NCBI GenBank assembly: GCA_000405245.1
Contig: ASMQ01000001.1
Location: 1-57,613 of the forward strand
DNA: 57,613 nucleotides
From: Candidatus Aenigmarchaeum subterraneum SCGC AAA011-O16
GTDB lineage: Archaea; Aenigmatarchaeota; Aenigmatarchaeia; Aenigmatarchaeales; Aenigmatarchaeaceae
Direction: 5' to 3'
Every line of letters starts with the position of its first letter. The stretch's first letter is position 1. Of this stretch, positions 3,406 to 36,349 are shown one piece after another. The position numbers and the translations under genes were made by a program. Below the pieces are notes generated by a model. It was not told where the DNA came from. It searched no databases and saw nothing but the letters and a program-made list of their open reading frames with translations.

Positions 3406-4287
3406 TTGCAAATAATTATCAGTGGTCCTGTGGTAGAAAGGGTTTTGATAGTATTAGTCCTTAGTATAATCTTCATTTTCGGAGTTTTCCTTGCAGGGAG
3501 ACTTACAGGATTCTTTCTGGTAAACATTACTGAAAATGCGACAGGCAATGCTACTGAAAATTTAACAGAGAATTCAACATTAGGAAATTTGACAGAAAAT
3601 TTTACGGAGACTGCTCCAGAAGTGTCAAATGCAACTGAGAATACCACACAACCTGAGGTCAATTTAACTCCGAAGAAGCCAGAAATACTTCCGCCATTCG
3701 AAACTCCGCCATCACCCCCTCCTTTTGTAGAATCTTTGGTTTTAAATCCTTCATTTAATGATCGCCGAGAAGGTAATCCCAATTTGTTCAAAAACTGGTT
3801 CTCACAGAATAGTGTTGATGGGATTGATGACGGAGATCATGAAGAATGGTTGTATGTGCCAGTTGCTAATGTAGGTAGAACAGCTTCGCCATCTTTTAAT
3901 TTCTCAGCATGGTCCATTTCCCCAGAAGTCACCTCAAGATCTTTTAATGTAGGACCTAAAAAGTATTCACTTGTACTTTATTTCAAAACAAGTTCTACAT
4001 ATTCGCAAGTGGATGATCTAGGGATTATAGGACTATCGTTCTTTCTTTTTGATGTAAATGGGAATTTCCTGAATTCTGACGACATAATCTTTGGCCCCTC
4101 CTCTTATTTTCTTCCAGATCCAGACCTCTTTGAATCCGCATCGATTGAAAATGAAGGGGACTGGATTAAACTTTCGATAACAACCACAGCACTCCCTGCC
4201 TCAGGAATTGGAAAATTGGCTCTTGGTTCAAGATTCGTAGAAGGATATGTTTTGATTGATGATGTCTCTATCAGCGTGGTGCAATGA
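3406..4287 (+). CDS. Membrane-anchored jelly-roll-like surface protein
   Basis: First gene of surface cluster A, about 293 residues. An N-terminal hydrophobic segment (about residues 13-38) acts as anchor or signal. A low-complexity N/T/E linker (about 40-95) is full of NxT/S sequons, followed by a proline-rich stretch (PPFETPPSPPP). The C-terminal 180 residues resemble carbohydrate-binding jelly rolls: it opens LVLNPSFND and closes GYVLIDDVSIS, a typical first and last strand. The start is a TTG at 3406; GTG at 3430 is an alternative. Its stop overlaps the ATG of the giant gene (ATGA), indicating cotranscription. Cluster B opens with a similar protein. Sugar binding is inferred, not shown. 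Confidence 0.7.
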   Translation: MQIIISGPVVERVLIVLVLSIIFIFGVFLAGRLTGFFLVNITENATGNATENLTENSTLGNLTENFTETAPEVSNATENTTQPEVNLTPKKPEILPPFETPPSPPPFVESLVLNPSFNDRREGNPNLFKNWFSQNSVDGIDDGDHEEWLYVPVANVGRTASPSFNFSAWSISPEVTSRSFNVGPKKYSLVLYFKTSSTYSQVDDLGIIGLSFFLFDVNGNFLNSDDIIFGPSSYFLPDPDLFESASIENEGDWIKLSITTTALPASGIGKLALGSRFVEGYVLIDDVSISVVQ

Positions 4288-6650
4288 ACAGAAGCAAAAA
4301 TTTACAAACAATTTTGGTAATAGGGTTTATAATTCTAATAATCGTCCTAGTAAACAACGCATTTGCTGTCCAGACAGACTACCAAGGTTGTTCTGCCAGA
4401 GACATTTATAACGGAACTGGAATGGACTGTGGTACCAATTTAGATACAAGAAATGATTTGCTGAGAATGAACATAACTTCTCAAAGTGTTGATGGTGACA
4501 GGGAGAGATTTTTTAACGAAACTTTTGATACAAATACTACAATAACTGGGACAAATTTTTCTAATGTAGGTCCGTGGTTTTCCACTTCCGCTTGGCTAAG
4601 TGCTGCTTGTGTAGGAAACAGGGGTTCAACAACTATCAGCGGTGCTGTATTTAGATTGAACACAAGCAGCACTGCTGTCAACACAACAGGCTACAGAGCT
4701 ATAGACTTCGAGTATGATTATGTTGCACCAGCCGCGTTAGATGCAGGTGAATTCATTAGAATCTTTGCGTACAGCGCTACAAATACGAGGACACAACTTT
4801 TGGTAGTTGATGGTGGAGACGCTTTGGGTTGCGAGCCTATACGGAATTCATCCATGGATTTTAATGATACAAGAACTTTCAACTGGACTTTTTATGCTGA
4901 TACAGGTACTATGGCAGGTGAGTTTCTTCAGATTGATGAACTAAATTTGACTGGCTTGCCTATAATGAACACCATTGCAGTGAATTTAACATCCAAACCC
5001 ATTGCAGAAGATCCGGGTTTAATTACCGCCTTGACTTTAGTTTTTAATTTTAGTTTCAATGCTTCTCTGCCTGGCGATTGGTATATAGACGTATTTGACA
5101 ATAATGCTGTGCAGTGGGTTAACAAGATGTCGGGATTAATAAATACCACTTGGATTCAACCAAACATAACACTGGACGTCAGTCCTTCAGATTTTGTCAA
5201 TTCTTCTGGACATGTCATGACAAGAATAAGAACTGACATGATTAGGAAGTATTATAATGCAACAAATGCCTTCAACCTTTCCGTAGACTGGTTTAACACA
5301 TCTGTTACTTTTATTTCAAATCGACCGCCGAGATTCAAAGATAACACAACAAACTTTGGATTGTCGACTCCATATTCTCCGGGAAAGAACTTGGGCTTTC
5401 AAGCAAATTGGTCAGACCCTGATGCTGGAGGTAATGCAGCAGTTAGTAAAGCAATTTTTGAAATCAATCTTTCAGGAACAATAACAAATTATACAAGATT
5501 CACTACGCCAGCCATAAACAACGGAACAGATGGGGTTTACACAATCAATTTTACAATGCCTCAAACTAGAGGAGCAGGTCAATATCAATACAGATGGTTT
5601 GCTAATGATACTTCGAACTCATTCAACCAGACAACCATAGTCATCTTTGAGATCACACAGAACGACACAAAAAACATGATAATGAATCTGACTTTAAATG
5701 GGACAGAGGCTGACTTATCTAGGACTTACAGATTTGTCCACAATGCTACTGCGAACAGCTCCGCTGTAGTAGATGCTGTGTTAGCTTTCAACTTCACAAG
5801 AAACACCACACATTTGGCAAGCAATCTGGTCGACGGAAATACTGCATCAGAACAATTGGACAGGGCAGTCGGTCAATACAATTTCACTTACAATACATCA
5901 GGAAATGCTAATTATTCGTCAGCTACAAAATCTTTGCTTTTGACGGTTTTCAATTCGAGCCAAAGTGCAGAATTAAAAGTTGTACCTTATCCTAACACAT
6001 ACGGGAATCCTACAACAGCTACATGCATAGGCAATGGTACAGATTTCGTTGGTGGAATTGTCTCACCACCAGCTTATGGATTATTTAGAAATGCCAGCGA
6101 CGTCACTGCTACAGAAAACAACACAGCACTAGTTCTGCCGACTCTACAATGGGCATATGTCTGCAATGTCACAAATACGCAGAACTATACTTTTTCAACA
6201 AACTACTCGCTCTACAACATAAGCAAAGCTGATTTGAATGTAACTCTGCAACTGAATGGGACGCAAGGCAATAGAAATTACACGGAAAGGCAAGTCGCAA
6301 ACTTCACTGCATATACAAACTTCTCTTTAGTCGAGAACACACAAAAACTGATTTTGACTTCTAATTATACCGGCTGGATAGACTTGACATCCAATCAGTA
6401 TATATTCAACACTACTAACCTGACGACTGTTGGGCAGAACTGGAATATTTCTGGGTATTTTGTAGGTAACGGGAACATAAGTTATCGGCAACAGTTCTAT
6501 CTGTTCAACGTGACTGCCGTACCGCCTAATCAAGTTCCGCAGTACAAAGACAACACAACAAATTTCGGACTTTCAACACCATATTCTCCGGGAAAGAACT
6601 ATGGATTCCAGATAAATTGGACAGATCTGAAGGCGGAAATGCTGCAGTAA
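4284..6650 (+). CDS. Giant repeat surface glycoprotein, N-terminal part (frameshifted)
   Basis: N-terminal 788 codons of what should be a 2842-residue protein running to 12811. Residues 1-28 are a signal peptide (hydrophobic core, then NNAFAVQ). Residues about 30-340 form a domain paralogous to the start of the 29719-35022 protein (shared VNTTGYR, LDAGE and TRTQL-type blocks). From residue about 347 (nt 5322) the 392-residue repeats begin. At 6624-6629 the repeat reads GAT CTG where other units read GAT CCT GAA, so one C is missing; the frame then hits TAA at 6648. The reading frame continues in the next feature. Dense NxS/T sequons suggest heavy N-glycosylation. Confidence 0.85.
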   Translation: MNRSKNLQTILVIGFIILIIVLVNNAFAVQTDYQGCSARDIYNGTGMDCGTNLDTRNDLLRMNITSQSVDGDRERFFNETFDTNTTITGTNFSNVGPWFSTSAWLSAACVGNRGSTTISGAVFRLNTSSTAVNTTGYRAIDFEYDYVAPAALDAGEFIRIFAYSATNTRTQLLVVDGGDALGCEPIRNSSMDFNDTRTFNWTFYADTGTMAGEFLQIDELNLTGLPIMNTIAVNLTSKPIAEDPGLITALTLVFNFSFNASLPGDWYIDVFDNNAVQWVNKMSGLINTTWIQPNITLDVSPSDFVNSSGHVMTRIRTDMIRKYYNATNAFNLSVDWFNTSVTFISNRPPRFKDNTTNFGLSTPYSPGKNLGFQANWSDPDAGGNAAVSKAIFEINLSGTITNYTRFTTPAINNGTDGVYTINFTMPQTRGAGQYQYRWFANDTSNSFNQTTIVIFEITQNDTKNMIMNLTLNGTEADLSRTYRFVHNATANSSAVVDAVLAFNFTRNTTHLASNLVDGNTASEQLDRAVGQYNFTYNTSGNANYSSATKSLLLTVFNSSQSAELKVVPYPNTYGNPTTATCIGNGTDFVGGIVSPPAYGLFRNASDVTATENNTALVLPTLQWAYVCNVTNTQNYTFSTNYSLYNISKADLNVTLQLNGTQGNRNYTERQVANFTAYTNFSLVENTQKLILTSNYTGWIDLTSNQYIFNTTNLTTVGQNWNISGYFVGNGNISYRQQFYLFNVTAVPPNQVPQYKDNTTNFGLSTPYSPGKNYGFQINWTDLKAEMLQ

Positions 6651-9600
6651 GTAAGGTGATATTTGAAATTAATGTTTCTGGGACAATAACAAATTACACA
6701 AGGTATACTTCTCCGGCAGTAGGCAATGATACCTCTGGAGTCTACACAATTAATTTCACACAGCCTCAGTTTTCCGGAGCAGGCGAATACAGATATAGGT
6801 GGTTCGCTAACGACACAGGAAACGAATTCAATTTGACTAACGTTGTAATCTTCACTATCACGCAAAATAGGACATTAAGTTTCATGAACCTTACTCTCAA
6901 TGGAACTGAAGCAAACCTTGCTGTAACATACAGAAGCGTACATAATGCCACTGCAAATTCCAGCACAGTCACAGATGCAAATTTGCCTTTCAACTTTACA
7001 AGGAACATTACACACCTTTTCAGCAATATCTTTGACGGTCAGATAAATTCAGTTCAACTGGACTTGCCTGTCGGAGAATATAATTACACTTTCAACACAT
7101 CCGGAAATGCAAACTATTCGGCTGGAACAAAGTCCTTTATACATACTGTACAAAACGCGACTTCCAATGTGACTTTGACAATGACTCCAGGAGTAACGAC
7201 ATATCCTACTTCAACTACAACAGTCTGCACAGCAGATAACAGAGAAACTTCTGCAAATCTTTATAGAAACGCCTCTCTGGCAAATACGGAAAATAATACA
7301 GCTATAATTCTCGGAGCAGGACAGTGGGCATATACATGTAATGTCACTGCGACTCAGAACTTCACTTTCGCCGGAGTTACAAATATCCTTAACATAAGCA
7401 AAGGCGACGCGTTGTTGAATCTGACTTTGAATGGCACGCAAGCGAATAGAAACTACACGAGAAATGAGGTTGCTAACTTTACGGCCTACTCCAATGTCAG
7501 TTTTGTAAGAGAAGTGCAACAACTCATCCTGACTTCGAACTACACCGGATGGGTGGATTTAACATCCATTCAATACATTTTTAACACAACCAATTTGACT
7601 ACAGTAGGACAAAACTGGAACATAACAACGTATTTTGTAGGAAACTCCAATCTATCCTACACAACACGAAGTGTATTCTTTAATGTCAGCACTCCGCCAC
7701 CGAATCAACCCCCACAATATAAGGATAACACGACAAACTTTGGATTAGTAACAACATTCTCTCCTAACAAAAACTATGGATTTCAGATAAACTGGACCGA
7801 TCCGGAAAATGGAAACGCGGGAGTGAGCCAAGCTTTCTTTGAGACTAATGTTTCCGGAACGATCACTAATTACACCAGATTTTCATCACCGGCAGTGACA
7901 AACACATCTGCTAACGGGCTTTACATAATAAACTTCACACAAGAACAATTTTTACAGACAGGAGAATATAGATTCAGATGGTTTGCGAATGAGACTGGAA
8001 ACGAAGTTAATGAAACCAGCTTGGTTATTTTTACAATCAACAAAAACAGTACTTTCGACTTTATGAACTTGACTTTGAATAATACTGAGGCTTCCTTGTC
8101 AGTCACTTACAGAAGCGTACATAATGCGACTGCAAACAATTCCATCGGACAACAGATACTTGCTTTCAATTTCACAAGAAACTTAACACATTTAGCTAAC
8201 AATCTCGGAGCAAACTCAAGAGCATCAGAACAACTCGATTTGGCTGTGGGACAATATAATTACACGTACAACACATCTGGAAACATCAATTACACAGCGT
8301 CCACAAAATCATTCGTCTTGACTGTGAGCAATGCAACTTCTAATGCGACTTTAACTGTAACACCAACAGCTCCGGTCACTTACGCTGTTTCATCGACAGC
8401 AATCTGTACTTCAGATCACAAAGAGAGTTCTACAAATCTCTATAGGAATGACACACTTGCAAATACTGAAAATAATACAGGACTGTTCTTGCCGGCTGGT
8501 CAGTGGAAGTATATATGCAATGTCACAGCTACACAAAATTACACCTTTGCAACAGCATTGACAATTTACAACATCAGCAGAGGCGACGTGAATGTAACTT
8601 TACAATTAAATGGAACACAAGGCAACAGGAATTACACGCAAAGAGAAGTGGCTAACTTTACAGCATATACGAACGTATCTTTGGTTAGAGAAGTACAGAA
8701 ACTGATTTTGACTTCAAATTATACCGGATGGATTGACCTGACTTCCGATCAATATGTTTTTAACACAACAAACCTAACAACAATCGGACAAAATTTCAAC
8801 ATGTCCGGATATTTCGTTGGCAATTCAAATCTAAGTTATAGGCAACAGTTTTATCTATTCAACGTATCTACCCCGCCACCTAACCGTCCTCCGCAGTTTA
8901 AAGAGAACATAACCAACTTCGGGTTGGCATCAACATACTCACCTGGTAAAAATTATGGTTTTCAAATTAATTGGACAGACCCTGAATTTGGAAACGCGGG
9001 AATTGATAAAGTTATATTCGAAACAAACGTTTCTGGCGTTATAACGAATTATTCTAGATACGATTCTCCTGCTGTTACAAATACCTCAAATAATGGTCTT
9101 TATACAATTAACTTTACTCAGGAGCAATTCCCACAAGCCGGAGAGTATAGGATCAGGTGGTTCGCTAATGATAGCAATGCAGGTGAGAATGCTTTCAACT
9201 TGACAAGTCTTGTCATCTTTACTATTAATAAGAACACATCCTTCGACAGAATGAATTTGACATTGAACAAAACAGAAGCACCATTATCAGTTACCTATAG
9301 GAGCGTAACCAATGCGACTGGAAATCACTCCATATTTTTGACAGGACAAGTTCTGTCTTTAAACATGACTAGGAATACTACGCACTTCGACGGCTCCGTG
9401 ATTTCAGGCTTCTACGATGAACAACTTGATTTGGCTGTCAGTCAGTATAATTATACATTCAATACCTCCGGTAATGTCAATTACACCGCCGGAACCAAAT
9501 CATTTATTTTGACAGTGGGTAACGCTACAAGCAATGTCACTTTAACCGTAACTCCAGCCCCGACCACATATCCTACCCAGTCTACAGCAACATGTACAGG

Positions 9601-10925
9601 AGATAGTAGGGAGGTTTCTTCGAATCTTTACAGAAATGACACTCTGGCCAATACGGAAAACAACACTGCATTAATCTTGCCGGTTGGTCAGTGGAAATAT
9701 ATCTGCAATATCACAGCTACACAAAACTTTACATCCACAACATTCACAAGAATCCAGAACATAACTAAAGGAGACCTGACCATAAGTTTGTTCCTCAATG
9801 ACACACAGGCAAACAGGAATTACACAAGAAATGAAGTTGCAAACTTTACAGCTGCTGGAAATGTTTCTGGGATAACAATAACTCTCGCGTCTAATTACAC
9901 AGGCTGGATTGACCTAACCGGAACACAGTTCATTTATAACACGACCAATTTAACTACACTTGGCCAGAATTGGAACATTTCCTCATACTTCAACGGCAAT
10001 GCAAACCTCTCCTACTTCATGAGGACTTTAGCATTCAATGTGACTACGCCACCACCTAATAGACCACCACAGTTCAAAGAAAATACGACAAACTTCGGAT
10101 TGTCAACAGCATATTCAACTGGAAAGAACTATGGCTTTCAAATAAATTTCAGCGACACGGAAACTGGAAATGCTGGCGTGGATAAAGTATTGTTTGAAAC
10201 AAACGCTTCTGGAACTGTAACAAATTATTCGGTTTTCTCCTCTCCGGCGGTTACAAACACTTCAACGAGTGGATTGTTCACAATTAATTTCACACAGGAG
10301 CGATTCCTAAGCTCCGGAGAGTACAGAATAAGATGGTTTGCAAATGACACGGGCAACGAGGCCAATTTAACTAGTGTTGTAATTTTCACAGTAACAAAAA
10401 ACAGTTCAATAAACTACATGAATTTGACTTTGAATGGAACAGAAGCTACACTCTCTGTCACCTATAGGAGTGTTACGAACGCCACAGGTTACAATGCAAT
10501 ATCTTCTGGACAGATTATACCTTTCAACCTTACAAGAAATACGACGCATATAGGAATCACAAACCCAATTTCAAATGTTTTGGATCTAGCAGTTGCTCAA
10601 TATAATTACACATACAATACAAGTGGAAATGCAAATTACACCACATCAACTAAATCATTTATACTTAGCGTGACGAATGCGACATCAAACGTTACATTGT
10701 CCGTTACACCAGCCACACCGACATTCGGAACATCGACCACTGCAACTTGCACATCTGATAGTAGGGAGACTTCATCTAATCTCTATAGGAATTCCAGCTT
10801 AGCAAATACCGAGAATAATACAGCATTGATACTGCCAGGTGGGCAATGGACTTATGTCTGCAATGTAACAGCGACTCAGAACTTTACCTTTGCCACCACA
10901 GCACAAATTTACAATGTAAGCAAAG
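5322..10925 (+). repeat. Five tandem ~1.18-kb coding repeats
   Basis: Units begin at about 5322, 6531, 7706, 8885 and 10061, each opening with a PP(R/Q)(F/Y)K(D/E)N motif followed by TNFGL and NYGFQINW. Spacings are 1209, 1175, 1179 and 1176 bases; the last unit is shorter (ends near 10925). Each 392-residue unit seems to hold about four Ig-like modules, marked by WFAND, YNTSGN, ENNTALILPxGQW and NTTNLTT. Protein identity between units is high while many third codon positions differ, so the array is not a recent DNA duplication. By hand count unit 4 has about 35 NxS/T sequons. Confidence 0.9.
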
Positions 10926-12811
10926 CATCCAATCCAGTAAATCTATTTTTGAATGGAACTTTGAACTCGAATAAAAGTTATATTTATCCGCAGGCAATAA
11001 ACGCGACAGCAGCAATAACCGGTGGCACAGCAACTTTATTTAGAGATGACGCTTCAGTCTCGAATCCTCATCTCATCCAACCTGCGGCTAAATCCGCTGG
11101 ATATGCTTACAAAGCAAATGGAACAGGAAACCAAAACTACTCCGACAACTTCACAGGCGTCACCTTCTATGCTATAGTTGACAAAAGTTTCACTCTAACT
11201 AGTCTATTCTTAAACGGAACAGAAGGAAATGTAAATTATATTCTTAATGGAATTGCAAACCTGACAACATCTGTCAACACCACAGGACAGATACAACTTT
11301 GGACAAACTTCACTGGCTCGATGCAGAACGTATCGAATTCCCCAGGAACATCTCCGTTGATAAACTACACTAATCTTACAACCAGAGGAGCTTACAATAT
11401 CACAGGATACTTTGCAGGGAATGAAAACTTCTCAACATCGAGCCAGTTTTATATTGCAAAGGCTATAGGCGGTTATGCTGAAGCTGATCTTATTGAGCCT
11501 ACAGGAATAAAACTTGTAAAAGAAAAAGACACCTTTTTCCTTAATACGCAATTCACATGCAGGGTAGCAACCTGTGGTCTACTCAACATAACACCGCGAC
11601 AGGAATTGAACGTCATAACAAACAACACGGCTGACGGACTTTACTTGGATAGCGGAGAAACTTCTGTAAAACAATGCACATTGTCAATCGGTCAAGGCTG
11701 TTTTGCTAACTGGACAATCGTAGCCAACACCATAGGATCCTATGACGTCGATGCTAACGTCAGCGGAGCAGACATAACTAATGACACGGCAGATGTTCTA
11801 GTTTCTGTATACCGGGTCGTGACTGAAGTTGTGACAGTGCCGGGCTTTGGAGGAGGCCTTTTGATTATAAGAGAAAAAGGCAGACCTTTGCTTGACTTAG
11901 AAATTGTCAATTTGACTCCTAGAGTATTTACTGGAGAAAATTTAATTTACACTATCAATTTAACTAACGTAGGAAACCTTACAACCTTCGATGTCGTAAT
12001 CCACAAAAGCGTTATAAAGGACGATAAGGTCCTTCTAACTGACGCCATAACACGATCGATGTATGATAACATTTCGATAACAGACTCTATGCACATACCT
12101 GACGACTTTAATGTGGATAGATATTTCTTCCAATTGTTTGTGGAGTACGTGGGGAGAAATGCATCTGCTGTGGCTACTTTTGATGTAATAAAAGACTGTT
12201 TGACTTTGAAAGGGGTTTCTTACGATCTCTTCAGCAGAAAGCAGGTGATGCATTCTGAGACCTTGAAAGATGTCAACCTTACCTTTGAAAACATCTGTGG
12301 ATTCGATTTGAATGATGTCATAATGAATATTGATGGCTTGAAGATCAGGGTAGGTAAAGTTGCTGGAAGCTTTGAGAGGAGCATCAACTTCGATAAATTT
12401 GGAGCACATCCAATATCGCTCACGTATAAAGAGGGAGAGTCTAAGGTAGATTTTGCGCTTGAACCGCCAGGACCAGACCTGTTAACAATCCTACTAATTT
12501 TAATAACCTTAGGATTGATTATCGGAATAGTTTATTATTCAAAAAGAATATACGCCATACTGCAGGAACTTGGCATAGTCATACCAAAGATAAGTCTGAA
12601 TATTCCGAAGATAACCTGGAGGCCAAGAATTCCAAAAATACCAGCATTGCCAAAAATTATTATCAAAATCCCTGAAATACCACGGCTCCCTGAAAAACCA
12701 AAAGAATTAAAGCCGGAAAGCGAAGTATTTAAGGAGGAATTGAAGGCTAAGGTAATAGAAAAGTTAGAAAAGAAATTCGAGGAGGAAGAAAATGAAAAAG
12801 GACGAAGTTGA
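6617..12811 (+). CDS. Giant repeat surface glycoprotein, C-terminal part with membrane anchor
   Basis: Continuation of the 4284 gene after the one-base frameshift; no start or signal peptide of its own (the frame opens on ATT). It holds most of unit 2 and units 3-5 of the tandem repeat, three further Ig-like modules (about 10925-11470), a juxtamembrane region, and one transmembrane segment (about 12475-12547). The cytoplasmic tail is unusual: proline-spaced basic repeats (PKISL, PKITW, PKIPA, PKIII) then a charged helix ending EEEENEKGRS. The tail overlaps the start of a coiled-coil gene by 20 bases. Most likely a very large adhesin, S-layer-associated or fibre-like protein; threonine and asparagine rich. 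Ligand unknown. Confidence 0.85.
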   Translation: MDRSEGGNAAVSKVIFEINVSGTITNYTRYTSPAVGNDTSGVYTINFTQPQFSGAGEYRYRWFANDTGNEFNLTNVVIFTITQNRTLSFMNLTLNGTEANLAVTYRSVHNATANSSTVTDANLPFNFTRNITHLFSNIFDGQINSVQLDLPVGEYNYTFNTSGNANYSAGTKSFIHTVQNATSNVTLTMTPGVTTYPTSTTTVCTADNRETSANLYRNASLANTENNTAIILGAGQWAYTCNVTATQNFTFAGVTNILNISKGDALLNLTLNGTQANRNYTRNEVANFTAYSNVSFVREVQQLILTSNYTGWVDLTSIQYIFNTTNLTTVGQNWNITTYFVGNSNLSYTTRSVFFNVSTPPPNQPPQYKDNTTNFGLVTTFSPNKNYGFQINWTDPENGNAGVSQAFFETNVSGTITNYTRFSSPAVTNTSANGLYIINFTQEQFLQTGEYRFRWFANETGNEVNETSLVIFTINKNSTFDFMNLTLNNTEASLSVTYRSVHNATANNSIGQQILAFNFTRNLTHLANNLGANSRASEQLDLAVGQYNYTYNTSGNINYTASTKSFVLTVSNATSNATLTVTPTAPVTYAVSSTAICTSDHKESSTNLYRNDTLANTENNTGLFLPAGQWKYICNVTATQNYTFATALTIYNISRGDVNVTLQLNGTQGNRNYTQREVANFTAYTNVSLVREVQKLILTSNYTGWIDLTSDQYVFNTTNLTTIGQNFNMSGYFVGNSNLSYRQQFYLFNVSTPPPNRPPQFKENITNFGLASTYSPGKNYGFQINWTDPEFGNAGIDKVIFETNVSGVITNYSRYDSPAVTNTSNNGLYTINFTQEQFPQAGEYRIRWFANDSNAGENAFNLTSLVIFTINKNTSFDRMNLTLNKTEAPLSVTYRSVTNATGNHSIFLTGQVLSLNMTRNTTHFDGSVISGFYDEQLDLAVSQYNYTFNTSGNVNYTAGTKSFILTVGNATSNVTLTVTPAPTTYPTQSTATCTGDSREVSSNLYRNDTLANTENNTALILPVGQWKYICNITATQNFTSTTFTRIQNITKGDLTISLFLNDTQANRNYTRNEVANFTAAGNVSGITITLASNYTGWIDLTGTQFIYNTTNLTTLGQNWNISSYFNGNANLSYFMRTLAFNVTTPPPNRPPQFKENTTNFGLSTAYSTGKNYGFQINFSDTETGNAGVDKVLFETNASGTVTNYSVFSSPAVTNTSTSGLFTINFTQERFLSSGEYRIRWFANDTGNEANLTSVVIFTVTKNSSINYMNLTLNGTEATLSVTYRSVTNATGYNAISSGQIIPFNLTRNTTHIGITNPISNVLDLAVAQYNYTYNTSGNANYTTSTKSFILSVTNATSNVTLSVTPATPTFGTSTTATCTSDSRETSSNLYRNSSLANTENNTALILPGGQWTYVCNVTATQNFTFATTAQIYNVSKASNPVNLFLNGTLNSNKSYIYPQAINATAAITGGTATLFRDDASVSNPHLIQPAAKSAGYAYKANGTGNQNYSDNFTGVTFYAIVDKSFTLTSLFLNGTEGNVNYILNGIANLTTSVNTTGQIQLWTNFTGSMQNVSNSPGTSPLINYTNLTTRGAYNITGYFAGNENFSTSSQFYIAKAIGGYAEADLIEPTGIKLVKEKDTFFLNTQFTCRVATCGLLNITPRQELNVITNNTADGLYLDSGETSVKQCTLSIGQGCFANWTIVANTIGSYDVDANVSGADITNDTADVLVSVYRVVTEVVTVPGFGGGLLIIREKGRPLLDLEIVNLTPRVFTGENLIYTINLTNVGNLTTFDVVIHKSVIKDDKVLLTDAITRSMYDNISITDSMHIPDDFNVDRYFFQLFVEYVGRNASAVATFDVIKDCLTLKGVSYDLFSRKQVMHSETLKDVNLTFENICGFDLNDVIMNIDGLKIRVGKVAGSFERSINFDKFGAHPISLTYKEGESKVDFALEPPGPDLLTILLILITLGLIIGIVYYSKRIYAILQELGIVIPKISLNIPKITWRPRIPKIPALPKIIIKIPEIPRLPEKPKELKPESEVFKEELKAKVIEKLEKKFEEEENEKGRS

Positions 12812-13154
12812 TAATATTGCTGAAGAGATAGCTGATGAAACTTTTGATTTTTTTAAAAGCAAATTCAAAGGCGTTTTAGATGTCGCTGAGAAAAGCTCTA
12901 GACTGAACCAAACAGTATCCTCGAACATGAGCAATTTAGACAAGAGATTAAACTATATGGAGAGTAGACTAGAGAACCATATCAAAAACTTTAACATTGT
13001 CGCGGTTGAAACGGATAGGCTGATAACCGAGAAAACTGAGGATTTGGCTAGAGAGAACGACGAGACTATAATGAAATTAGTAAGCGATATCCAGGACTTG
13101 AGGGACGAAGTTACAAGACTAAAGACCGATTTGAGAAGGAAAAACCAATTTTAA
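12792..13154 (+). CDS. Cytosolic coiled-coil protein, 120 residues
   Basis: Starts inside the 3' end of the giant surface gene at ATG 12792, with a clear GGAGG-type ribosome binding site about 8 bases upstream (near 12781-12786). No signal peptide or membrane segment. Residues 1-30 are acidic; residues about 40-115 have heptad-like spacing (LDKRLNYMESRLENHI, then DIQDLRDEVTRLKTDL) typical of a parallel coiled coil. Because the giant protein has a charged cytosolic tail and the genes are translationally overlapped, a tail-binding cytoskeletal or clustering adaptor is a reasonable inference. No named family recognised. Confidence 0.75.
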   Translation: MKKDEVDNIAEEIADETFDFFKSKFKGVLDVAEKSSRLNQTVSSNMSNLDKRLNYMESRLENHIKNFNIVAVETDRLITEKTEDLARENDETIMKLVSDIQDLRDEVTRLKTDLRRKNQF

Positions 13155-13179
13155 ATTTCTTAACATTTAAGAGTGTAGT

Positions 13180-16464: not shown

Positions 16465-16467
16465 ACT

Positions 16468-23813: not shown

Positions 23814-23825
23814 GAAATTTTATTT

Positions 23826-27047: not shown

Positions 27048-27068
27048 TAGTATACTTTAAAATCTGAC

Positions 27069-27076
27069 ATTTAAAT
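27069..27076 (-). promoter_or_regulatory. TATA box of pyrG
   Basis: ATTTAAAT centred about 25 bases before the pyrG ATG. The spacing leaves almost no 5' leader, matching the pattern at many other genes here. It lies between the structured region at 27106-27235 and pyrG, so that region would not be part of the pyrG mRNA. Confidence 0.5.
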
Positions 27077-27105
27077 CCTTTTCGCTTTTTGAGAAATTAG
27101 TAAGA

Positions 27106-27235: not shown

Positions 27236-27270
27236 ATAATTATGCGCGCTGATATTTATTTCTATCGCAA

Positions 27271-28173: not shown

Positions 28174-28222
28174 ACTCAAAACTAGATTTGGAATGTATTT
28201 AAAGTCTTATGGACTTGTAGTC

Positions 28223-28750
28223 TTACTTTATAATTCTAACATCAGCCGCAAAGCATCCGTTCTCATTGCAGAAAAGAGGATTCACGTCCATTTCTTTTAT
28301 CTTTTCGTTGACAGCTAGCTTCGAGACTTTTATCAAAGTTTCGTATAAAGCAGAGAAGTTGATAGGCTTTCCACCCCTGAAACCTTTGAGAACTTCATAC
28401 CCTTTCAATTCCCTAACCATATCCTCAGCATCCTGCAAAGAAATAGGACAAACTCTATAAGTGACGTCTCTCAAAACCTCAACAAAAACCCCGCCAATAC
28501 CAGCAGTTATGATTGCTCCGAAAGAATGATTTCTCTTAACCCCAGTTATAAGCTCTAAACCTGATAGTTGCTTTTGTATGAGAACCTTTTCCGCGCCTCT
28601 TATCTTCATCAGTTGCTTGAAAGCTTCCTGAGCCTGCTCCATGCTTTGTATGTTTAGCTTGACTCCGCCGAACTCAGTCTTGTGTATGATCTTCTCTCCA
28701 GAGACCTTCATCACACAAGGAAAGCCAATTTTCTTAAGAACAGATTGCAA
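28223..28750 (-). CDS. acdB: ADP-forming acetyl-CoA synthetase beta subunit, main part (frameshifted)
   Basis: ATP-grasp domain of the nucleotide-binding subunit. Visible motifs are FPCVMKVSGEKIIHKTEFGGVKLN with the active-site His of the HK(S/T) loop, GAIITAGIGGVFVEVL, and a C-terminal KEMDVNPLF. It lacks the first helix and strand, which are encoded in another frame just upstream (28711-28971). Reading seven A residues instead of six at the run 28799-28804 would restore one 249-residue protein. Partner of the alpha subunit at 21811-23181. It is followed by the epimerase, which has its own promoter. Confidence 0.85.
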   Translation of the reverse strand: MQSVLKKIGFPCVMKVSGEKIIHKTEFGGVKLNIQSMEQAQEAFKQLMKIRGAEKVLIQKQLSGLELITGVKRNHSFGAIITAGIGGVFVEVLRDVTYRVCPISLQDAEDMVRELKGYEVLKGFRGGKPINFSALYETLIKVSKLAVNEKIKEMDVNPLFCNENGCFAADVRIIK

Positions 28751-28971: not shown

Positions 28972-29000
28972 AAAATCCTTTATAACATTAATAACTCCAC

Positions 29001-29024
29001 TATTTAAATCACTAACTTTAAATG
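29001..29024. promoter_or_regulatory. Divergent TATA boxes for acdB and surface cluster B
   Basis: TATTTAAAT at 29001-29009 faces acdB (ATG 28971) and CTTTAAATG at about 29016-29024 faces the plus-strand secreted protein (ATG 29047). Both sit at leaderless spacing from their genes, so the two transcripts share a 75-base control region. Confidence 0.5.
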
Positions 29025-29046
29025 TGAGTTTCAAGATAATTAGTTC

Positions 29047-29679
29047 ATGAAAACTGTAGGCTTTGCTATTATTTTTGTTGTCTTAGCAAGTGCGTGTGTC
29101 AATTTTGGGTCTTCTGAAGTTGTTTTTTCCTCGTCTTTCGAAGAAATAAGGGATGGAAATTTGCCTACAGATTGGTTTGTTCTCGATCAAGACAAACGTC
29201 CTTATACAAACAATGTAGACAGTGGAACTTGGGTTAATGCTCTCGTGGATGATGCATTCTCTGGAGCAAAAGCTATGAAGGTTTCAAGCGGGAGTGCGAG
29301 CAATACTTTAAAATCCAGAGCATTCCCTGTAAAAGTCCCGGGAAACTATATAATAAGTTTCTACTATAAACCATTCAATATGAATTCGCCTTTGGATGCT
29401 ACTACAAATAGCGGTTCAGGAGCATTCGCCATATTGCATGACAGTGCCGCTCCGGTGAACGAACTGAACTTTAACAGCCAAACAGCAAGGTCGTCTGATG
29501 CCGGCGAATTTTATGGTATTTCCCTGACTGATGCGGGCAACGGGTGGAAAAAATTGGAATCCAGAATCAAATTTACCGAGCTACCAAAAAATAATGATAA
29601 AATAGTTTTAATATTTTGGATAAATGACCCTTTTGAAAATTCCTATTATCTTTTGGATAACATCACTTTCAGTCATTAA
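29047..29679 (+). CDS. Secreted jelly-roll-like protein, lipoprotein-like signal
   Basis: 210 residues. The signal peptide (1-17) ends in LASAC, which resembles a lipobox. The mature protein is one beta-sandwich like carbohydrate-binding modules: VVFSSSFEEIRDGNLPTDW at the start, NYIISFYYKPF in the middle and SYYLLDNITFS as the last strand. This mirrors the protein that opens surface cluster A. A giant paralogous surface protein follows 39 bases later. Binding of a glycan is inferred from fold only. Confidence 0.7.
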   Translation: MKTVGFAIIFVVLASACVNFGSSEVVFSSSFEEIRDGNLPTDWFVLDQDKRPYTNNVDSGTWVNALVDDAFSGAKAMKVSSGSASNTLKSRAFPVKVPGNYIISFYYKPFNMNSPLDATTNSGSGAFAILHDSAAPVNELNFNSQTARSSDAGEFYGISLTDAGNGWKKLESRIKFTELPKNNDKIVLIFWINDPFENSYYLLDNITFSH

Positions 29680-29718
29680 ATTTATGCTTGAACGACTTAT
29701 AATAAAGAGGAAAATGGT

Positions 29719-32700
29719 ATGAAAGGGGAGGGCTTAAGATTAGAAATAGTGTTTTTTCTAGTTTTAATATTAAATATTCTGAATTTTTCTGTTCTGGCTT
29801 CTGCTGGACAGTATTTGGGTTCGACAGACTACGCTATATACAACGGAACAGTGCCAGCTGCTTTAAGCACTAGATTAGATACTGACGACAATGTTTTTTG
29901 GAATGCATCAGCAAGCGTGTACTACGAGGGAAATAGAGAGACAATCTTCTATGATGGTGGTGCAATAACGTCAGCATGGACTAATTTAAACTGGTTAGAC
30001 ACTGAACTTGAAGCATGTACGGGTGATGGTGACAATAACTTTCTTGCTGATGGAGTTTCAGGCGTCTACACGCTAAACACGACTTCCAGAATTGTTAATA
30101 CAACAGGTTACAGGGTAATAGAATTTAATTACACTATTTCTGCAAATGCTCAACTTGATGCTGGTGAGCTGGCTGTGGTAAGAGCTTATTCAGGAGCGAC
30201 TACGAGCACACAACTGTATATTGATGATGGCGGGGGTTCAGGAAACTGTATTGTGGCAAGAAATATATCCCAAGCTTTTAATGATACAGGAACCTTTAAT
30301 TTCACTTTATGGTGTAATCACAATAACGCGGCAAACGAGCTTTGCAGAGCCGACAATATTCGCATATCCGGCTTACCTATGCTCTCGACTGTAGCGTTCA
30401 ATCTGACAACAAAGCCTTTCACAGAAACTGTGGCAGACGTAACAAGAATGGATATAGAGCTTTCTCTCCTGTTCAACCAAAGCCAAACCGGAGGAAACAG
30501 ATGGATTGACATTTTAAGGCAGAATGATTCTGTTTGGGAACAGGTGGCTGCATCCCCGTTCTCAATAACTGAAAACAAGACAAGGATCACAAAAGAATTT
30601 CCTACAGATGCAGCAGACATCTCAACGTATGCAAATTCTTCAAATCACATTACAATAAGATTCAGAACGAACACGATACAGAAGGGTCATGCTGGCGGTG
30701 TTAACAATGCCCAGTTCAATGTAGTGATGGATTTCCTGAACCTCACAACCACTGCTGCTGTTAATCTTGCTCCGCAGTCATTTGCGGTAGTACAAGGCAA
30801 ACCGAACGGCACGACATATTCCGATAGCCGCAATTTCGGTTTTCAAGCAAGATGGACAGACAATACTAACCCGCAACATGTCACATTTGAATCAAACATC
30901 TCTGGAGCCATCAGGAATTATTCTAACTACACAACCCCCGGACTCGCCGGTTGTGGTACAACTAGCGTGTATTGTATAAATTTCACCGGGCTCCAGACTA
31001 AAGGAGCTTTCAGTTATTACTATAGATGGTTTGCCAACGATTCTGCAAACCAACAGAACTCCACAAGTTTGACCTACTTCAATATATCCAGAGGAGCAAC
31101 AGCCGTATCACTCTTCATGAACGACTCTACAACAAACACAAATTACACACAGAATGAAGTTGCGAACTTCACAGCCATAATAAACACGACGGGTTTGACG
31201 ATAAATTTGACAAGCAATTATACTGGTTGGGTAAATCTGGCCGGAACAACTACAATTTTTAATACTACAAATTTAACGACCACAGGACTGAATTGGAACA
31301 TAACAACCTTCTTTATACAAAACGACAATTATACGACAACAATCACAAGTCTTTTCTTCAATGTCTCTGTACCGACACCACCAGCGATAGCTTGGAACCA
31401 GTCTACAAAAAATTTAGGAACAATAAATTCAGGCTCAAGTTCCTCAGGCAATGTCACAGCTAGATCGACAGGAGGGACGAGCACAAATGTTTTGATTAAT
31501 GAGAGTCAGGATACATGCAACTGTATTTCCTTTACACCTGACTCTGTCTCAAGCCTCGGAAATAATCAGCAACGAGAGGTCAGATTTACTGCAGCTCCAA
31601 GCACCGGTTTGAATGACGGAAGCATGTATTTCGCGATTGTCAACGTTACATCCACTCAAGACTCTTCTGCAGATCAAATTAATGTTTCTTTCATTTACAA
31701 CGCAGAAATATCTGGAAGTGTCGCATTGGATATGGGTGAGGTTTCAAACGCGACATCTGAATCAACAGCAGGAAGTGTGAGCGCGACAGGAACAAACACA
31801 AATGTCAGGGTTTTCAAAAGTTCTGGTAACGGGACAAATGTTATACATGTGAACAACACGGACATAGGAACGCTGCTTGGCGGGACAGGAGTCGGTGTCA
31901 ATTACATTTGCAACCCTCCACCACAAACAGCATTAGGTTACTACATAGTCAATTTTGTCATAAACTCGACAGAGCACAAGGCAGGATTAAATACGAGTGT
32001 GGCTTGTAGAGTCGCGTTTTCTGACAGAGCACCTTTATTCAGGAACTTCGGGCAGAATGTCTCTCAGGTTTTTGCTGGACACGGAATAAAATTGTTTGCA
32101 CAAGGATTTGATGACAGGGGTTTGCATCGAGCTTTCCTCTCCACTAATGAATCAGGAATATTTGTGAATTATACAGGAGAGGGTGGGGGTGGAGCCCAAA
32201 GCATACTGTCGTTCCAGAAATATAGACCTGTGGGCTGGCAAACTTCAGGCACGGTTACAGAACCAGAAAATGCGACTGATAAACATTACAATGATTCAGG
32301 CATATCGGGTACCTCTGTAGTAATACCATCAGGAACCTCTAGTGTGAATTATACCTACGACCTGCCTTCTGTAGATTCCGCAACCCTTTTTTATGTAGCT
32401 TATAGAGATACTCTTTCAGGTGGCACTGCGGATGTCTATAATTTTTCATCAAATAGTTTTTATAGAGTAGTTGTTTCTTTAACAGCTGCCGCAATCACAA
32501 GAACCGTGCAACTGAACATTACTTCTGGTCTTATAAATTCTACAGGACATGCTATCCTTAAAATAACCAACACCGCTAGTGATAACTTAAACATCGACGA
32601 TACACACACAACATTACCGGGCGATACATACAACTATTCCAATATAACATCGCCCAACGCCCCAGACATGTATGCTGCAAATTGGACAGGCGCATCAACA

Positions 32701-35022
32701 TCATGCGATTTAATAGCAATATGCATCGGCGAAATTGAATTCAACAATGCAGCTTATACAGCCATAGCACAGGATGACACAACATACACACAGATTGTTT
32801 GTAGATCATGCGCAGTTGGGCAGGAAGCTGACCATTTGATTCATCTAAAAGTGGAAGAGTCAATCAGCAACATAAACTCAGTGACAGTAAGATACCAAGG
32901 CTTTGCATCAAGCAGCACGCTAACTCTCTATATATTTAATAACTCGATGCCTGGCTGGCAAAACATGACTGTGATAGGTACAAGCACAACCGGTATATAT
33001 TACAGAGAATATAGCGGTGCAGAAGTGTCTGATGTGGTCGACAGTTCAGGTTATGTTAATTTGAAAGTCGCAACTCCGCAAGACGGAAGTGTAACAGCAA
33101 ATACAGATTATGCGGAAGTGAATGTGAATCACACCGCAGCTGCTGCTGGCGGAGGTCCGTCTTTATACAGCTCTCCTTTGAATTTACTGAACACTTCAAA
33201 CAACTGGACATGGACAAACTTCTCCTGGAGCAACACAACAATAGTTGACAAAGTCGTTGCATGGAGAATATGGTATGAAGATAATTCAAGCAAGACAACT
33301 GCAACCCCAATAAGATTATTCTTCTCAGGATCTGTTATCAGAGATCGTCTAACAGGTTTGTGCACAACAGATTTCAATGTCCTTAATGATACTTGCGTCT
33401 CGTCTTCAGAAGCAAAAGAAAACCAAACATACTATTTGAATTTCCTTTTGGTTAACGGAACTCCACAAGGAAAAATTAATCAGACCATTCATTTGCAATA
33501 TAGCGAATCGAATGACACTACAAGGAATGAAGCAAATCTAGATGTCAAATTGCCATCAGCCCTCCCGTCAGGTAGCTGCGGAGGTAATTATCTTTACATG
33601 AGCACGACGCCGACAATCGAGACTTGTGCAGGTTTAAGTTGCACAGCTCTGACAGACGGAGGCAACCCGACAGGAGACATAAGAATCCAGCAGCTTTCAC
33701 CATTAAACGCATCTCCATATTATGTAAACATAACCTATCCTATAACATTCTGCACAAACACGACAGGTAAATCTTTTGACTTTGGTCACAGGATAGTCTC
33801 TTCGGCAGTAGGAAACCTCATCCCAGATTCATACATAACTATAGGTGTTTCTGCAATTCAGAAATGGGGCTACAACTTGACCGCTTCAATTTATTCATCG
33901 CCGGCAACAGCGGACATAAATGGGGATGGAGTGATAGATGTTATTTTCGGATCTGATGAAAACAAAGTTTATGCTGTGAGCGGAAATAATGGAACGAATT
34001 GGTGGAATTATTCGACAGGAGATGCTGTATTTTCCTCTCCGTCAATAGGAGATTTGGACAACGATGGAGATCTCGAGGTTGTCTTTGGTTCTTTTGACAA
34101 AAATATCACTGCTGTGAATAGCACAGGTGGAAGAGTGTGGAATTTCACGGCAGACGATTTGATCGGAACATCAGCGGCTCTAGTCGACTTGAACAACGAT
34201 AATGCATTGGAGGTTGTGATTGGTTCCTGCGGAAAGAATCTTTATGTTATTAACGGAACGAGCGGAGCGCTGTTATGGAATTATTCTGCAGAAGATTGTA
34301 TCTGGGCTTCTCCGGTTGTGGCTGACATAACCAATGACGGAATAAAAGAGATAGCATTCGGTTCGTATGACGGAAAAATTTATCTCTTGAATGGAAGCGT
34401 GGCTTCAATGACGAAAGCGCAGAGAACTCTGTGGAGCTTCAACTTCAGCAACACTACAGCCACATATCATCAATTAGAAGGAGCGCCGGCAATCGGAGAT
34501 GTGGATAACGACGGGACAAAGGATGTTATCTTCGGAACTTACAATGGAATATCAGGAGGCAATCCTCCGACAAATTACATTTATGTTTTGAACGGAGGTT
34601 CAGGAGCACAAATATGGAACTACTCTGTAGGCTTCACCCTTGTCGGATCAGCTCCAGTTTTGAGCGATATTAATGGAGACGGATTCAAGGAAGTCATAGT
34701 CGGGACGCAGTCACCTGACAAAAGGATATACGCTCTAGTTGGATTGAACGGAACAAAGTTATGGGACTACCAAACAAATGGACATGTTGATTCTTCGCCT
34801 GCCATTGCAGATTTGAATGGTGATGGCATAAAGGATGTGATAGCTGGCTCATCTGACAATTTTGTTTACGTAATCAATGGAAAAGATGGTGCATTCTCAT
34901 GGAGGTTTAATGCCGGCGGTTCTATCTACACCTCGCCTGCAATAACAGATCTTAACAGCGATGGGAGAAATGAAATAGTTGTCGGAACAACGACTAACAA
35001 CCGCTTGATTACAATATCCTAG
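29719..35022 (+). CDS. Giant surface protein with Ig-like modules and FG-GAP propeller
   Basis: 1767 residues, uninterrupted. Signal peptide 1-31. Residues about 32-330 are paralogous to the start of the 4284 gene (VNTTGYR, LDAGE, ISGLPML blocks). A reduced version of the 392-residue repeat follows (NFGFQARWTDN, YYRWFAND, TSNYTGWVNL, IFNTTNLTT), then about 700 residues of beta-rich modules. Residues about 1390-1767 hold eight FG-GAP/VCBS calcium-binding repeats forming a beta-propeller. No C-terminal membrane segment is present, so it is secreted or held by partners. NxS/T sequons are dense. Probable adhesin. Confidence 0.88.
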   Translation: MKGEGLRLEIVFFLVLILNILNFSVLASAGQYLGSTDYAIYNGTVPAALSTRLDTDDNVFWNASASVYYEGNRETIFYDGGAITSAWTNLNWLDTELEACTGDGDNNFLADGVSGVYTLNTTSRIVNTTGYRVIEFNYTISANAQLDAGELAVVRAYSGATTSTQLYIDDGGGSGNCIVARNISQAFNDTGTFNFTLWCNHNNAANELCRADNIRISGLPMLSTVAFNLTTKPFTETVADVTRMDIELSLLFNQSQTGGNRWIDILRQNDSVWEQVAASPFSITENKTRITKEFPTDAADISTYANSSNHITIRFRTNTIQKGHAGGVNNAQFNVVMDFLNLTTTAAVNLAPQSFAVVQGKPNGTTYSDSRNFGFQARWTDNTNPQHVTFESNISGAIRNYSNYTTPGLAGCGTTSVYCINFTGLQTKGAFSYYYRWFANDSANQQNSTSLTYFNISRGATAVSLFMNDSTTNTNYTQNEVANFTAIINTTGLTINLTSNYTGWVNLAGTTTIFNTTNLTTTGLNWNITTFFIQNDNYTTTITSLFFNVSVPTPPAIAWNQSTKNLGTINSGSSSSGNVTARSTGGTSTNVLINESQDTCNCISFTPDSVSSLGNNQQREVRFTAAPSTGLNDGSMYFAIVNVTSTQDSSADQINVSFIYNAEISGSVALDMGEVSNATSESTAGSVSATGTNTNVRVFKSSGNGTNVIHVNNTDIGTLLGGTGVGVNYICNPPPQTALGYYIVNFVINSTEHKAGLNTSVACRVAFSDRAPLFRNFGQNVSQVFAGHGIKLFAQGFDDRGLHRAFLSTNESGIFVNYTGEGGGGAQSILSFQKYRPVGWQTSGTVTEPENATDKHYNDSGISGTSVVIPSGTSSVNYTYDLPSVDSATLFYVAYRDTLSGGTADVYNFSSNSFYRVVVSLTAAAITRTVQLNITSGLINSTGHAILKITNTASDNLNIDDTHTTLPGDTYNYSNITSPNAPDMYAANWTGASTSCDLIAICIGEIEFNNAAYTAIAQDDTTYTQIVCRSCAVGQEADHLIHLKVEESISNINSVTVRYQGFASSSTLTLYIFNNSMPGWQNMTVIGTSTTGIYYREYSGAEVSDVVDSSGYVNLKVATPQDGSVTANTDYAEVNVNHTAAAAGGGPSLYSSPLNLLNTSNNWTWTNFSWSNTTIVDKVVAWRIWYEDNSSKTTATPIRLFFSGSVIRDRLTGLCTTDFNVLNDTCVSSSEAKENQTYYLNFLLVNGTPQGKINQTIHLQYSESNDTTRNEANLDVKLPSALPSGSCGGNYLYMSTTPTIETCAGLSCTALTDGGNPTGDIRIQQLSPLNASPYYVNITYPITFCTNTTGKSFDFGHRIVSSAVGNLIPDSYITIGVSAIQKWGYNLTASIYSSPATADINGDGVIDVIFGSDENKVYAVSGNNGTNWWNYSTGDAVFSSPSIGDLDNDGDLEVVFGSFDKNITAVNSTGGRVWNFTADDLIGTSAALVDLNNDNALEVVIGSCGKNLYVINGTSGALLWNYSAEDCIWASPVVADITNDGIKEIAFGSYDGKIYLLNGSVASMTKAQRTLWSFNFSNTTATYHQLEGAPAIGDVDNDGTKDVIFGTYNGISGGNPPTNYIYVLNGGSGAQIWNYSVGFTLVGSAPVLSDINGDGFKEVIVGTQSPDKRIYALVGLNGTKLWDYQTNGHVDSSPAIADLNGDGIKDVIAGSSDNFVYVINGKDGAFSWRFNAGGSIYTSPAITDLNSDGRNEIVVGTTTNNRLITIS
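33913..34975 (+). repeat. Eight FG-GAP-type calcium-binding repeats
   Basis: Asp-rich loops DINGDGVID, DLDNDGDLE, DLNNDNALE, DITNDGIKE, DVDNDGTKD, DINGDGFKE, DLNGDGIKD and DLNSDGRNE occur at about 33913, 34051, 34185, 34324, 34498, 34666, 34809 and 34948. Each is followed by a (V/I)(I/V)(F/V/I)G strand and a W-containing strand, as in integrin-like propellers. Loop three lacks the usual glycine and is probably weaker for calcium. Confidence 0.88.
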
Positions 35023-35031
35023 GTGAAATTC

Positions 35032-35688
35032 ATGCAAGGCAAATACTTTGGAATTTTTTTAATTTTGTTTTTTGCTTTGCTATCAAATGTTGTTGCCGCT
35101 CCCGGAGACTGGGATATTTTTGGTGGGAATGAACAAAGAACAAGAGTCCAGGATCTGAGACCGCCCTTTTACACAACAATAGGTGTGAACAGCCTCACAA
35201 TATATTCTTTCTGGAAAGACAGCATAAGCAATCTAGGCTTTGCTTATGTGGAGGAAGATGCGACAGGCGCTTTCATAAAACATCCTGTCACAGTAAAAGG
35301 AACCTCCTCCTGGGTTAATTACACTATAACTTCTGCAAGTTCCAATGTAACCACAATAACATTTAAAATTTTTGTGGCTGATGTCTTAGGAAATTCAAAC
35401 ATAACTGAAGGCAGTTTTAGAGCCGATACGAAAACCATTCAAACCATAGCTACTACAACAGCTGTTTGCGGCAATAACGTGTGCGAAAGCGGGGAAGACT
35501 CTAACACATGCCCTCAGGACTGTCCAAAAACAGAAACAACAACAAATATAAATCAGCCCAGTGAAGAGCCTGAAACCACGATATTTTTAATACCAAGATT
35601 TGACATTGGAGATCTGCTTCCTGCAATCTTTGCAATAGTTTTATTGTCAGTAATAATAAGGATAATGGCGGAACAAATAAAAGGATAA
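35032..35688 (+). CDS. Exported membrane protein with Cys-rich motif
   Basis: 218 residues from ATG 35032, preferred over GTG 35023 because GGTGA seven bases upstream then works as ribosome binding site. Signal peptide 1-23, an Ig-like domain (about 35-130), a Cys-rich loop CGNNVCESGEDSNTCPQDC of a kind frequent in archaeal and bacterial surface proteins, a Thr-rich linker, and a C-terminal membrane segment (about 185-210). It follows the giant gene by nine bases and is likely cotranscribed; a membrane partner for that anchorless protein is an inference. Confidence 0.72.
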   Translation: MQGKYFGIFLILFFALLSNVVAAPGDWDIFGGNEQRTRVQDLRPPFYTTIGVNSLTIYSFWKDSISNLGFAYVEEDATGAFIKHPVTVKGTSSWVNYTITSASSNVTTITFKIFVADVLGNSNITEGSFRADTKTIQTIATTTAVCGNNVCESGEDSNTCPQDCPKTETTTNINQPSEEPETTIFLIPRFDIGDLLPAIFAIVLLSVIIRIMAEQIKG

Positions 35689-35707
35689 ATATTTAAAATA
35701 TGAATAG

Positions 35708-36349
35708 ATGTTTATGAAGACTAACAAAAACTATGCATACTTGCTTGTGTTTGAAGTATTGATTTTAATAGGTGTTTTGGTTTTTCCTTTAGACTCATTC
35801 AGAGTGAATAGGTATCCTGTAGCTGCGAGAGATTCTGACTCGACTCCAACAGGCTTGCTGATTGCTAATCTAGGGGACAGCAGTATGGAGCCTGTGATTT
35901 TGAAGTTCGCTCCTTTCGGTTATTTGACTGTGGAAAATTGGAACAAGGATCTGACAAGTCTGGGCGGAGAAGTAAAATCAGCTCAACTGATTGTGAACTG
36001 GCGTACTGATATCGGAAGGGGGGCAGGAAATATTTATATCGGATATTCCTTGGATGGAGGGAAAACATTCAAAGAAGTGGGACCGTTCACAGAATCAACA
36101 GGCACAGCAACATCCATTGATTTGCCACAACTGAGCTTAAGCGACCTGAATGGAGTAGACGCGAGATTCAGGGGAGAGGACATGGACGGAAAAGGCCCGG
36201 CCGTAGCATATGTAAATATGAGGATGGATGTGGATATGTCTTCGCCGTTTTTGAAAAATGTAGCATTAGTTTTTGTGGCTTTAGCGCTGGCGGTCACCTT
36301 GCTTGTTAATTATGGTTATGTTTCTCTGGGAAAATTTTTTGGAAAATGA
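35708..36349 (+). CDS. Two-helix membrane protein with extracytoplasmic beta domain
   Basis: 213 residues (the second ATG, at 35714, is equally possible). N-terminal membrane helix (about 9-27) and C-terminal helix (about 185-207) flank an extracytoplasmic beta domain. One sialidase-type Asp-box is visible (YSLDGGKTF); a lone Asp-box marks a propeller-like or Ig-like strand turn, not an enzyme. The AATATTTAAAAT just before the gene may be its TATA box. Last gene of surface cluster B. Function unknown. Confidence 0.65.
   Translation: MFMKTNKNYAYLLVFEVLILIGVLVFPLDSFRVNRYPVAARDSDSTPTGLLIANLGDSSMEPVILKFAPFGYLTVENWNKDLTSLGGEVKSAQLIVNWRTDIGRGAGNIYIGYSLDGGKTFKEVGPFTESTGTATSIDLPQLSLSDLNGVDARFRGEDMDGKGPAVAYVNMRMDVDMSSPFLKNVALVFVALALAVTLLVNYGYVSLGKFFGK

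Follow-up and report, generated by a model that had tools for sequence, protein, structure and literature searches.

How do DPANN-type archaea recognise partner cells and stay attached to them? Reports of giant surface proteins usually name no internal connection. This analysis concerns two gene clusters encoding such proteins in Candidatus Aenigmarchaeum subterraneum SCGC AAA011-O16. Both lie on contig ASMQ01000001.1, which was analysed over its whole length of 57,613 bases and is called the window here; positions refer to its forward strand. The genome comprises 15 contigs (428,886 bases; estimated completeness 42%), of which C2, C3, C5 and C10 are cited below, and contains archaeal housekeeping genes (fibrillarin, Nop5/56 and similar). 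G and L numbers label the genomes and loci of relatives. Phylum-wide searches covered 156 genomes, or 155 when the window's own genome was left out; searches at class level covered equally many, which suggests that a single class represents the phylum in this set. A preliminary description of the window had proposed that cluster A (3406-17796) and cluster B (29047-36349), each beginning with a jelly-roll-like protein that is followed by a giant one, form a two-cluster attachment system. The layout of both clusters was found as claimed, and together they occupy 37.7% of the window, over a third of its length. Our main new result concerns a small coiled-coil protein of cluster A, termed A4, and its association with MinD, an ATPase of a type that positions machinery of the cell surface at the poles.

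The MinD-linked coiled-coil protein A4

A4 (12792-13154) is a small cytosolic coiled-coil protein whose gene overlaps by 20 bases the 3' end of that for giant A, the large protein of cluster A. Pfam matches of A4 were scattered coiled-coil noise and pointed to no shared family. Single-sequence searches of other genomes returned relatives with E values of 1e-8 to 7e-12, and a family profile recovered five full-length members (in G074, G076, G051, G011 and G027) at E values of 5e-48 to 7e-38, which are not independent since these five members seeded the profile. Weaker profile hits were left out of the family count; an 88-residue remnant in G083 is not intact, and its 4.6-kb contig carries no MinD gene.

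A4 adjoins a MinD gene in all six relatives with an intact member, and the 2 genes overlap in five of them. The overlap with the MinD/ParA ATPase gene amounts to a few bases in G076, G051, G074 and G027, while the genes lie ~300 bases apart in G011. In G073, which was found via MinD, genes for a giant (1798 residues), a transmembrane (TM) protein, MinD, A4 (E=2e-7) and a 3-TM protein stand in a row. In G076 and G051 the A4-MinD pair has a TM-anchored protein and a large repeat protein as neighbors, and giants bearing the N-terminal domain of giant A (hereafter the N-domain) are likewise encoded in MinD-containing clusters of G082, G130 and G131. The N-domain giant of G077 adjoins genes that we take to be a pilus-type ATPase and TadC-like, based on their homology to pilus loci of the window's own genome. 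Gene order in these relatives shows a link between A4 and MinD, making A4 a putative MinD partner. It is the part of cluster A most worth following and its strongest link to anything functional.

We likewise asked how often MinD genes of the phylum have surface proteins as neighbors, selecting loci by MinD similarity only. Surface-protein residues accounted for at least 40% of those within 5 kb at 12 of 30 MinD loci; of 10 MinDs from the phylum that scored lower, none reached this share (Fisher p=0.015; Mann-Whitney p=0.009). Surface-linked MinDs had served to train the profile, but the training set included none of the 40 loci; the control set was small (n=10). At six loci from families f10 and f16 (L110, L111, L128, L106, L104 and L117), MinD adjoins a conserved 220-residue protein and mostly also a ~90-residue TM/coiled-coil protein. 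The four loci that were long enough (L106, L110, L111 and L128) additionally encode a giant of ~2000 residues with a TM helix and a helical tail, together with very large cytosolic coiled-coil proteins. These loci look like a larger version of the MinD-giant arrangement.

Giant A ends in a cytosolic tail that is similar to the C-terminal extensions of the A4-linked MinDs. When the 472 C-termini of the genome were compared with these extensions, the tail took ranks 1, 2, 2, 4 and 25, and shuffle p values ranged from <0.002 to 0.22; the giant of G073 displayed a like similarity to MinD C-termini. The resemblance is suggestive only. Helical tails and partners were also observed elsewhere. Two same-family loci (L141 and L147) encode Ig giants whose tails are long, basic and helical. 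The gene directly behind each giant encodes a signal-peptide protein of ~260 residues whose C-terminal half is helical, so that a helical partner gene again adjoins the giant. A giant of >4349 residues in G005 (L144, 2247-15296) crosses the membrane near residue 3950 and continues into a long coiled-coil tail on the cytosolic side.

Organization, glycosylation signal and paralogy of the clusters

All genes of both clusters are on the + strand. Cluster A opens with A1 (3406-4287), which has an N-terminal TM helix (TM 9-27), an Asn/Thr/Pro-rich linker and a jelly-roll-type domain. Giant A follows as two open reading frames (ORFs) because one C is absent at 6627/6628 relative to its other repeats (sequence 6601-6660); inspection by eye revealed no obvious slippery site for programmed frameshifting. 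The 5' ORF (4284-6650) encodes a signal peptide, the N-domain (4365-5318) and the first Ig-like unit, and the 3' ORF (6617-12811) encodes four more units, a CARDB-like region, the single C-terminal TM helix (~12479-12535) and a cytosolic tail of ~90 residues (~12536-12808). The five copies of this 393-residue unit are 65-69% identical, the last copy being incomplete. Both the membrane anchor with its cytosolic tail and the coiled-coil ORF were as the preliminary description had reported. The beta-helix protein that it assigned to cluster A is likewise present as an ORF, but with a split gene model. A5 (13180-16464) has an N-terminal TM helix, beta-helix-like repeats and a LamG domain (Laminin_G_3, PF13385, E=5e-24), and ends at a TGA (16462-16464). 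A6 (16468-17796), with Ig-like domains and a C-terminal TM helix, continues in the same frame, has no signal peptide and begins in the middle of beta-helix-like sequence. To judge from these features, A5 and A6 look like one gene, encoding LamG, Ig domains and a C-terminal TM helix, that is broken by the in-frame TGA.

A candidate third copy of the N-domain at window positions 5-505 was rejected. Positions 1-560 are a perfect inverted copy of 4538-5097 (560 bp, 100%), and positions 557-733 are a 98% inverted copy of 8088-8264 (177 bp). The contig end (1-733, - strand) is an assembly or amplification chimera of two inverted giant A pieces, and the apparent third copy is therefore false. The two pieces join with an overlap of a few bases, and the junction cuts a gene at 752-1387 (TM plus helix-turn-helix DUF7343).

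The genes of cluster B are intact. B1 (29047-29679) is a secreted or lipoprotein-like protein of the jelly-roll type. Giant B (29719-35022) has a signal peptide, the N-domain (29800-30756), two Ig domains (30811-31380) that represent only the first and the last of the 393-residue unit of giant A, a further Ig-like region and a C-terminal propeller (~33900-35019), with no membrane anchor of its own. The eight FG-GAP/PQQ-like blades ascribed to this propeller were borne out (Pfam E=4e-38 and 2e-23), with seven strict DxDxDG-type (calcium-loop) motifs and one degenerate one. B3 (35023-35688; signal peptide, Cys-rich motif and C-terminal TM helix) and B4 (35708-36349; N- and C-terminal TM helices and a beta domain) are membrane proteins, as had been described.

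N-x-S/T sequons were more frequent in the giant ORFs than expected from composition (60 vs 18, 155 vs 52 and 85 vs 37), and the reversed motif was much rarer than the forward one (22 vs 60 and 70 vs 155). Control proteins low in N, T and S displayed no enrichment (154 sequons vs 166 expected). Among all proteins, the surface-like set contained 680 forward and 380 reversed sequons, and the cytosolic-like set 232 and 217, respectively. Surface location of the cluster products is well supported. Taken together, signal peptides, anchors, sequons and homology support the surface role, cluster paralogy and modular reading put forward earlier. An ITG-type motif following N-terminal TM helices was also considered and proved unconvincing (8 of 104 proteins vs 58 of 1612 control windows).

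The N-domains of giants A and B, including the first repeat, are 35% identical over 517 residues (E ~1e-66), and their score lies 51 standard deviations (SD) above composition-preserving shuffles. Shared Asn/Thr-rich composition is therefore ruled out as the cause of the similarity. The claim that the giants share an N-terminal domain and an Ig-like repeat held, and we regard them as true paralogues. A1 and B1 match weakly in direct comparison (BLASTP E=0.048) at 8.7 SD above shuffles, and both are homologous to a 437-residue jelly-roll-type protein on C3 (C3:30945-32258; E=2e-6 for A1 and E=7e-9 for B1). The proteins heading the two clusters are thus homologous, but their jelly-roll fold is unconfirmed: structure prediction of the N-domain and the jelly-roll protein was of low confidence, with a mean predicted local distance difference test score (pLDDT) of 42-45 and a mostly beta model for the latter at pLDDT 42, and no fold match was found for these low-confidence models at E<=1e-3.

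The C3 locus further encodes a 633-residue protein (C3:32245-34146) that is related to giant B (11 SD) and whose first domain is homologous to B4 (9.5 SD above shuffles), as well as several small surface proteins, two TM-anchored proteins and a MinD/ParA ATPase. Additional Ig-unit proteins are encoded at C3:21269-27289 (2006 residues) and on C5 and C10. The idea of a two-cluster system did not survive this finding. Judged by homology, clusters A and B and the C3 locus are three related loci in a 42%-complete genome, an apparent triplication, and clusters A and B appear to have arisen as copies of a C3-type locus that then diverged. Surface location, the glycosylation signal and paralogy were demonstrated computationally.

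The order of a jelly-roll-type gene followed by a giant was found again in G012, a relative of the same order, where three tandem jelly-roll-type genes lie upstream of a 2708-residue Ig giant (L142 14212-18234). This giant is homologous to giant A (E=2e-51). Only the giant-adjacent jelly-roll-type gene is clearly related to B1 (9.2 SD), and it and its neighbor are close paralogues. TM proteins and then a gene that is presumably of the DUF1512 type follow the giant; the latter is 52% identical to a neighbor of the C3 locus, and the G012 arrangement sits at a place syntenic to the C3 locus. Finding this arrangement in G012 as well indicates that it is older than the window's genome. The paired order expected in relatives was seen only to this extent: at the per-genome threshold the jelly-roll profile detected no genome of the phylum except the window's own, and none of the relatives examined has two such clusters.

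Some further genes of the window lie outside the clusters. An exported DUF5667 plus CARDB protein (1543-2805) is encoded immediately upstream of cluster A, on the other strand. Between the clusters lies an apparent ADP-forming acyl-CoA synthetase in two parts ~5 kb apart (21811-23181 and 28223-28750), corresponding to a CoA-binding/ligase part and an ATP-grasp part. Genes for pyruvate dehydrogenase-type E1 and E2 with a lipoate ligase are found at 40232-48022 in this small-genome archaeon.

Possible positioned stalks and competing explanations

We propose, with a probability of roughly 45%, that the clusters encode modular glycosylated surface stalks of a DPANN-like archaeon, and that giant A connects through its tail to a positioning module made up of the coiled-coil protein and MinD. 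Giant A would form an N-glycosylated Ig-repeat stalk held by one C-terminal TM helix, and giant B a related secreted stalk with a terminal propeller, probably retained by B3 and B4. Ligands are likely to be bound by the jelly-roll-type, LamG and propeller modules. On the cytosolic side, giant A probably binds A4 through its tail; A4 would act as the adaptor of the MinD/ParA ATPase encoded on C3, and this ATPase would direct the stalks to particular sites, for example a pole. We infer the binding of the tail, the polar placement and the adhesion. We consider it doubtful that the same holds throughout the phylum, namely that MinD and a dedicated coiled-coil adaptor recognise an amphipathic helix common to the tails of MinD and of giant TM glycoproteins, and that very small archaea thereby place adhesive stalks at a defined cell site.

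Several observations weigh against this proposal. Its main weakness is that in this genome A4 stands beside the giant while MinD is on another contig: the only MinD detected is that at C3:39177-39944, with none in the window, and the trio is not contiguous. Separate contigs fit a rearranged version of the arrangement, yet the weakness stands. A4 and the N-domain were found in no same-family relative (N-domain, 0 of 7), and the A4-MinD pairs at L079, L080 and L082 either have no giant in the stretch examined or reach the contig end. A profile of MinD tails, used as a detector, did not find giant A, and amphipathic Lys/Glu helices are easily alike by composition. In addition, giant A and A5/A6 are both interrupted as read, the structure models are too poor to confirm folds, and the ligand-binding role of the modules is only predicted.

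An episymbiont's apparatus for specific adhesion to a host archaeon is compatible with MinD-positioned stalks, and host attachment by the clusters is plausible, if tentative. The modular proteins with Ig, LamG and propeller domains are similar to the giants on the surface of host-attached nanohaloarchaea (PMC10266531), and the genomes of the phylum that were examined are small, at about 0.3-1.9 Mb. However, the same modules serve in biofilm, surface or substrate binding in free-living archaea, and no host, ligand or phenotype is tied to the clusters.

It is rather unlikely that the giants constitute an ordinary, lineage-specific envelope glycoprotein coat with no specific role in attachment and no link to MinD, A4 having come to lie beside giant A by chance rearrangement. 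Such a coat would be in keeping with the distribution of the modules. The Ig unit is present in 50 of the 156 genomes, among them each of the seven same-family genomes, and the proteins that carry it often measure 2000-4300 residues. The N-domain and jelly-roll families have a patchy or unique occurrence, the N-domain being found in only eight of the 155 other genomes (four full-length and four partial). Chance rearrangement is nevertheless at odds with the conservation of the A4 family and with its place beside MinD in the gene order of six relatives. Furthermore, a separate S-layer protein is encoded at C2:34971-37451 (PF05124, E=2e-18), which makes it unlikely that the giants themselves form the lattice of the coat.

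We judge it improbable that decay or mis-assembly has left cluster A unable to make a functional giant. The frameshift at 6627/6628, the TGA at 16462 and the chimeric contig end are what such a state would leave, but long open frames persist in both ORFs of giant A, their repeats are intact and their sequons strongly enriched, sequence errors in a partial assembly also typically take the form of such single-base differences, and cluster B is intact. Least credible by far is a SPEARE-type secretion straw, as in the nanohaloarchaeal giants, equipped with a cytosolic secretion ATPase. The giants follow the same plan (signal peptide, Ig repeats, a propeller in giant B, and a TM helix plus cytosolic part in giant A) but the short tail of giant A has no ATPase domain and no VirB4/TraG gene was matched by Pfam among the window proteins scanned.

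Known systems and biological meaning

The SPEARE-type giants (SVXNc_0300 and BNXNv_0298; PMC10266531) are similar in having a Sec signal peptide, tandem Ig-like domains, a propeller, as in giant B, and a C-terminal TM helix with a cytosolic part, as in giant A, and they too belong to small-genome DPANN-like archaea. The giants of the window are three to five times shorter and have a jelly-roll-type gene upstream; in place of the hallmark VirB4/TraG-like ATPase domain, for which giant A displayed no Pfam match, there is a MinD-tied coiled-coil family. As large, secreted proteins of an archaeal surface, they are comparable to S_layer_C proteins, but they have no PF05124 match, the S-layer protein being separate. 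The propeller at the end of giant B resembles FG-GAP/PQQ-like propellers with integrin-alpha-type repeats in its eight blades and DxDxDG-type loops; unlike those of the integrin-alpha type, it sits on an archaeal Ig stalk and has no known partner chain.

According to PMC11588486, archaeal MinD function had been studied only in Haloferax volcanii, where MinD4 and MinD2 determine the positions of archaella and chemosensory arrays. Common to these systems and ours are a MinD/ParA ATPase, a small gene directly adjoining it (A4 in six relatives, though not in this genome) and a link to surface machinery. The neighbors in our case are predicted giant glycoprotein stalks rather than archaella or chemoreceptors. 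Since the Haloferax proteins position surface machinery, stalk placement by MinD is a reasonable analogy, not a demonstration, and is suggestive at this point. In the literature searched, we found nothing that links MinD to giant surface proteins in DPANN archaea, a negative of limited weight.

A conserved MinD and coiled-coil pair linked to giant stalks provides a concrete, testable handle on how such archaea hold partner cells, the prediction being that stalk positions are set from within the cell. Giant stalks may also represent a new cargo for archaeal MinD proteins.

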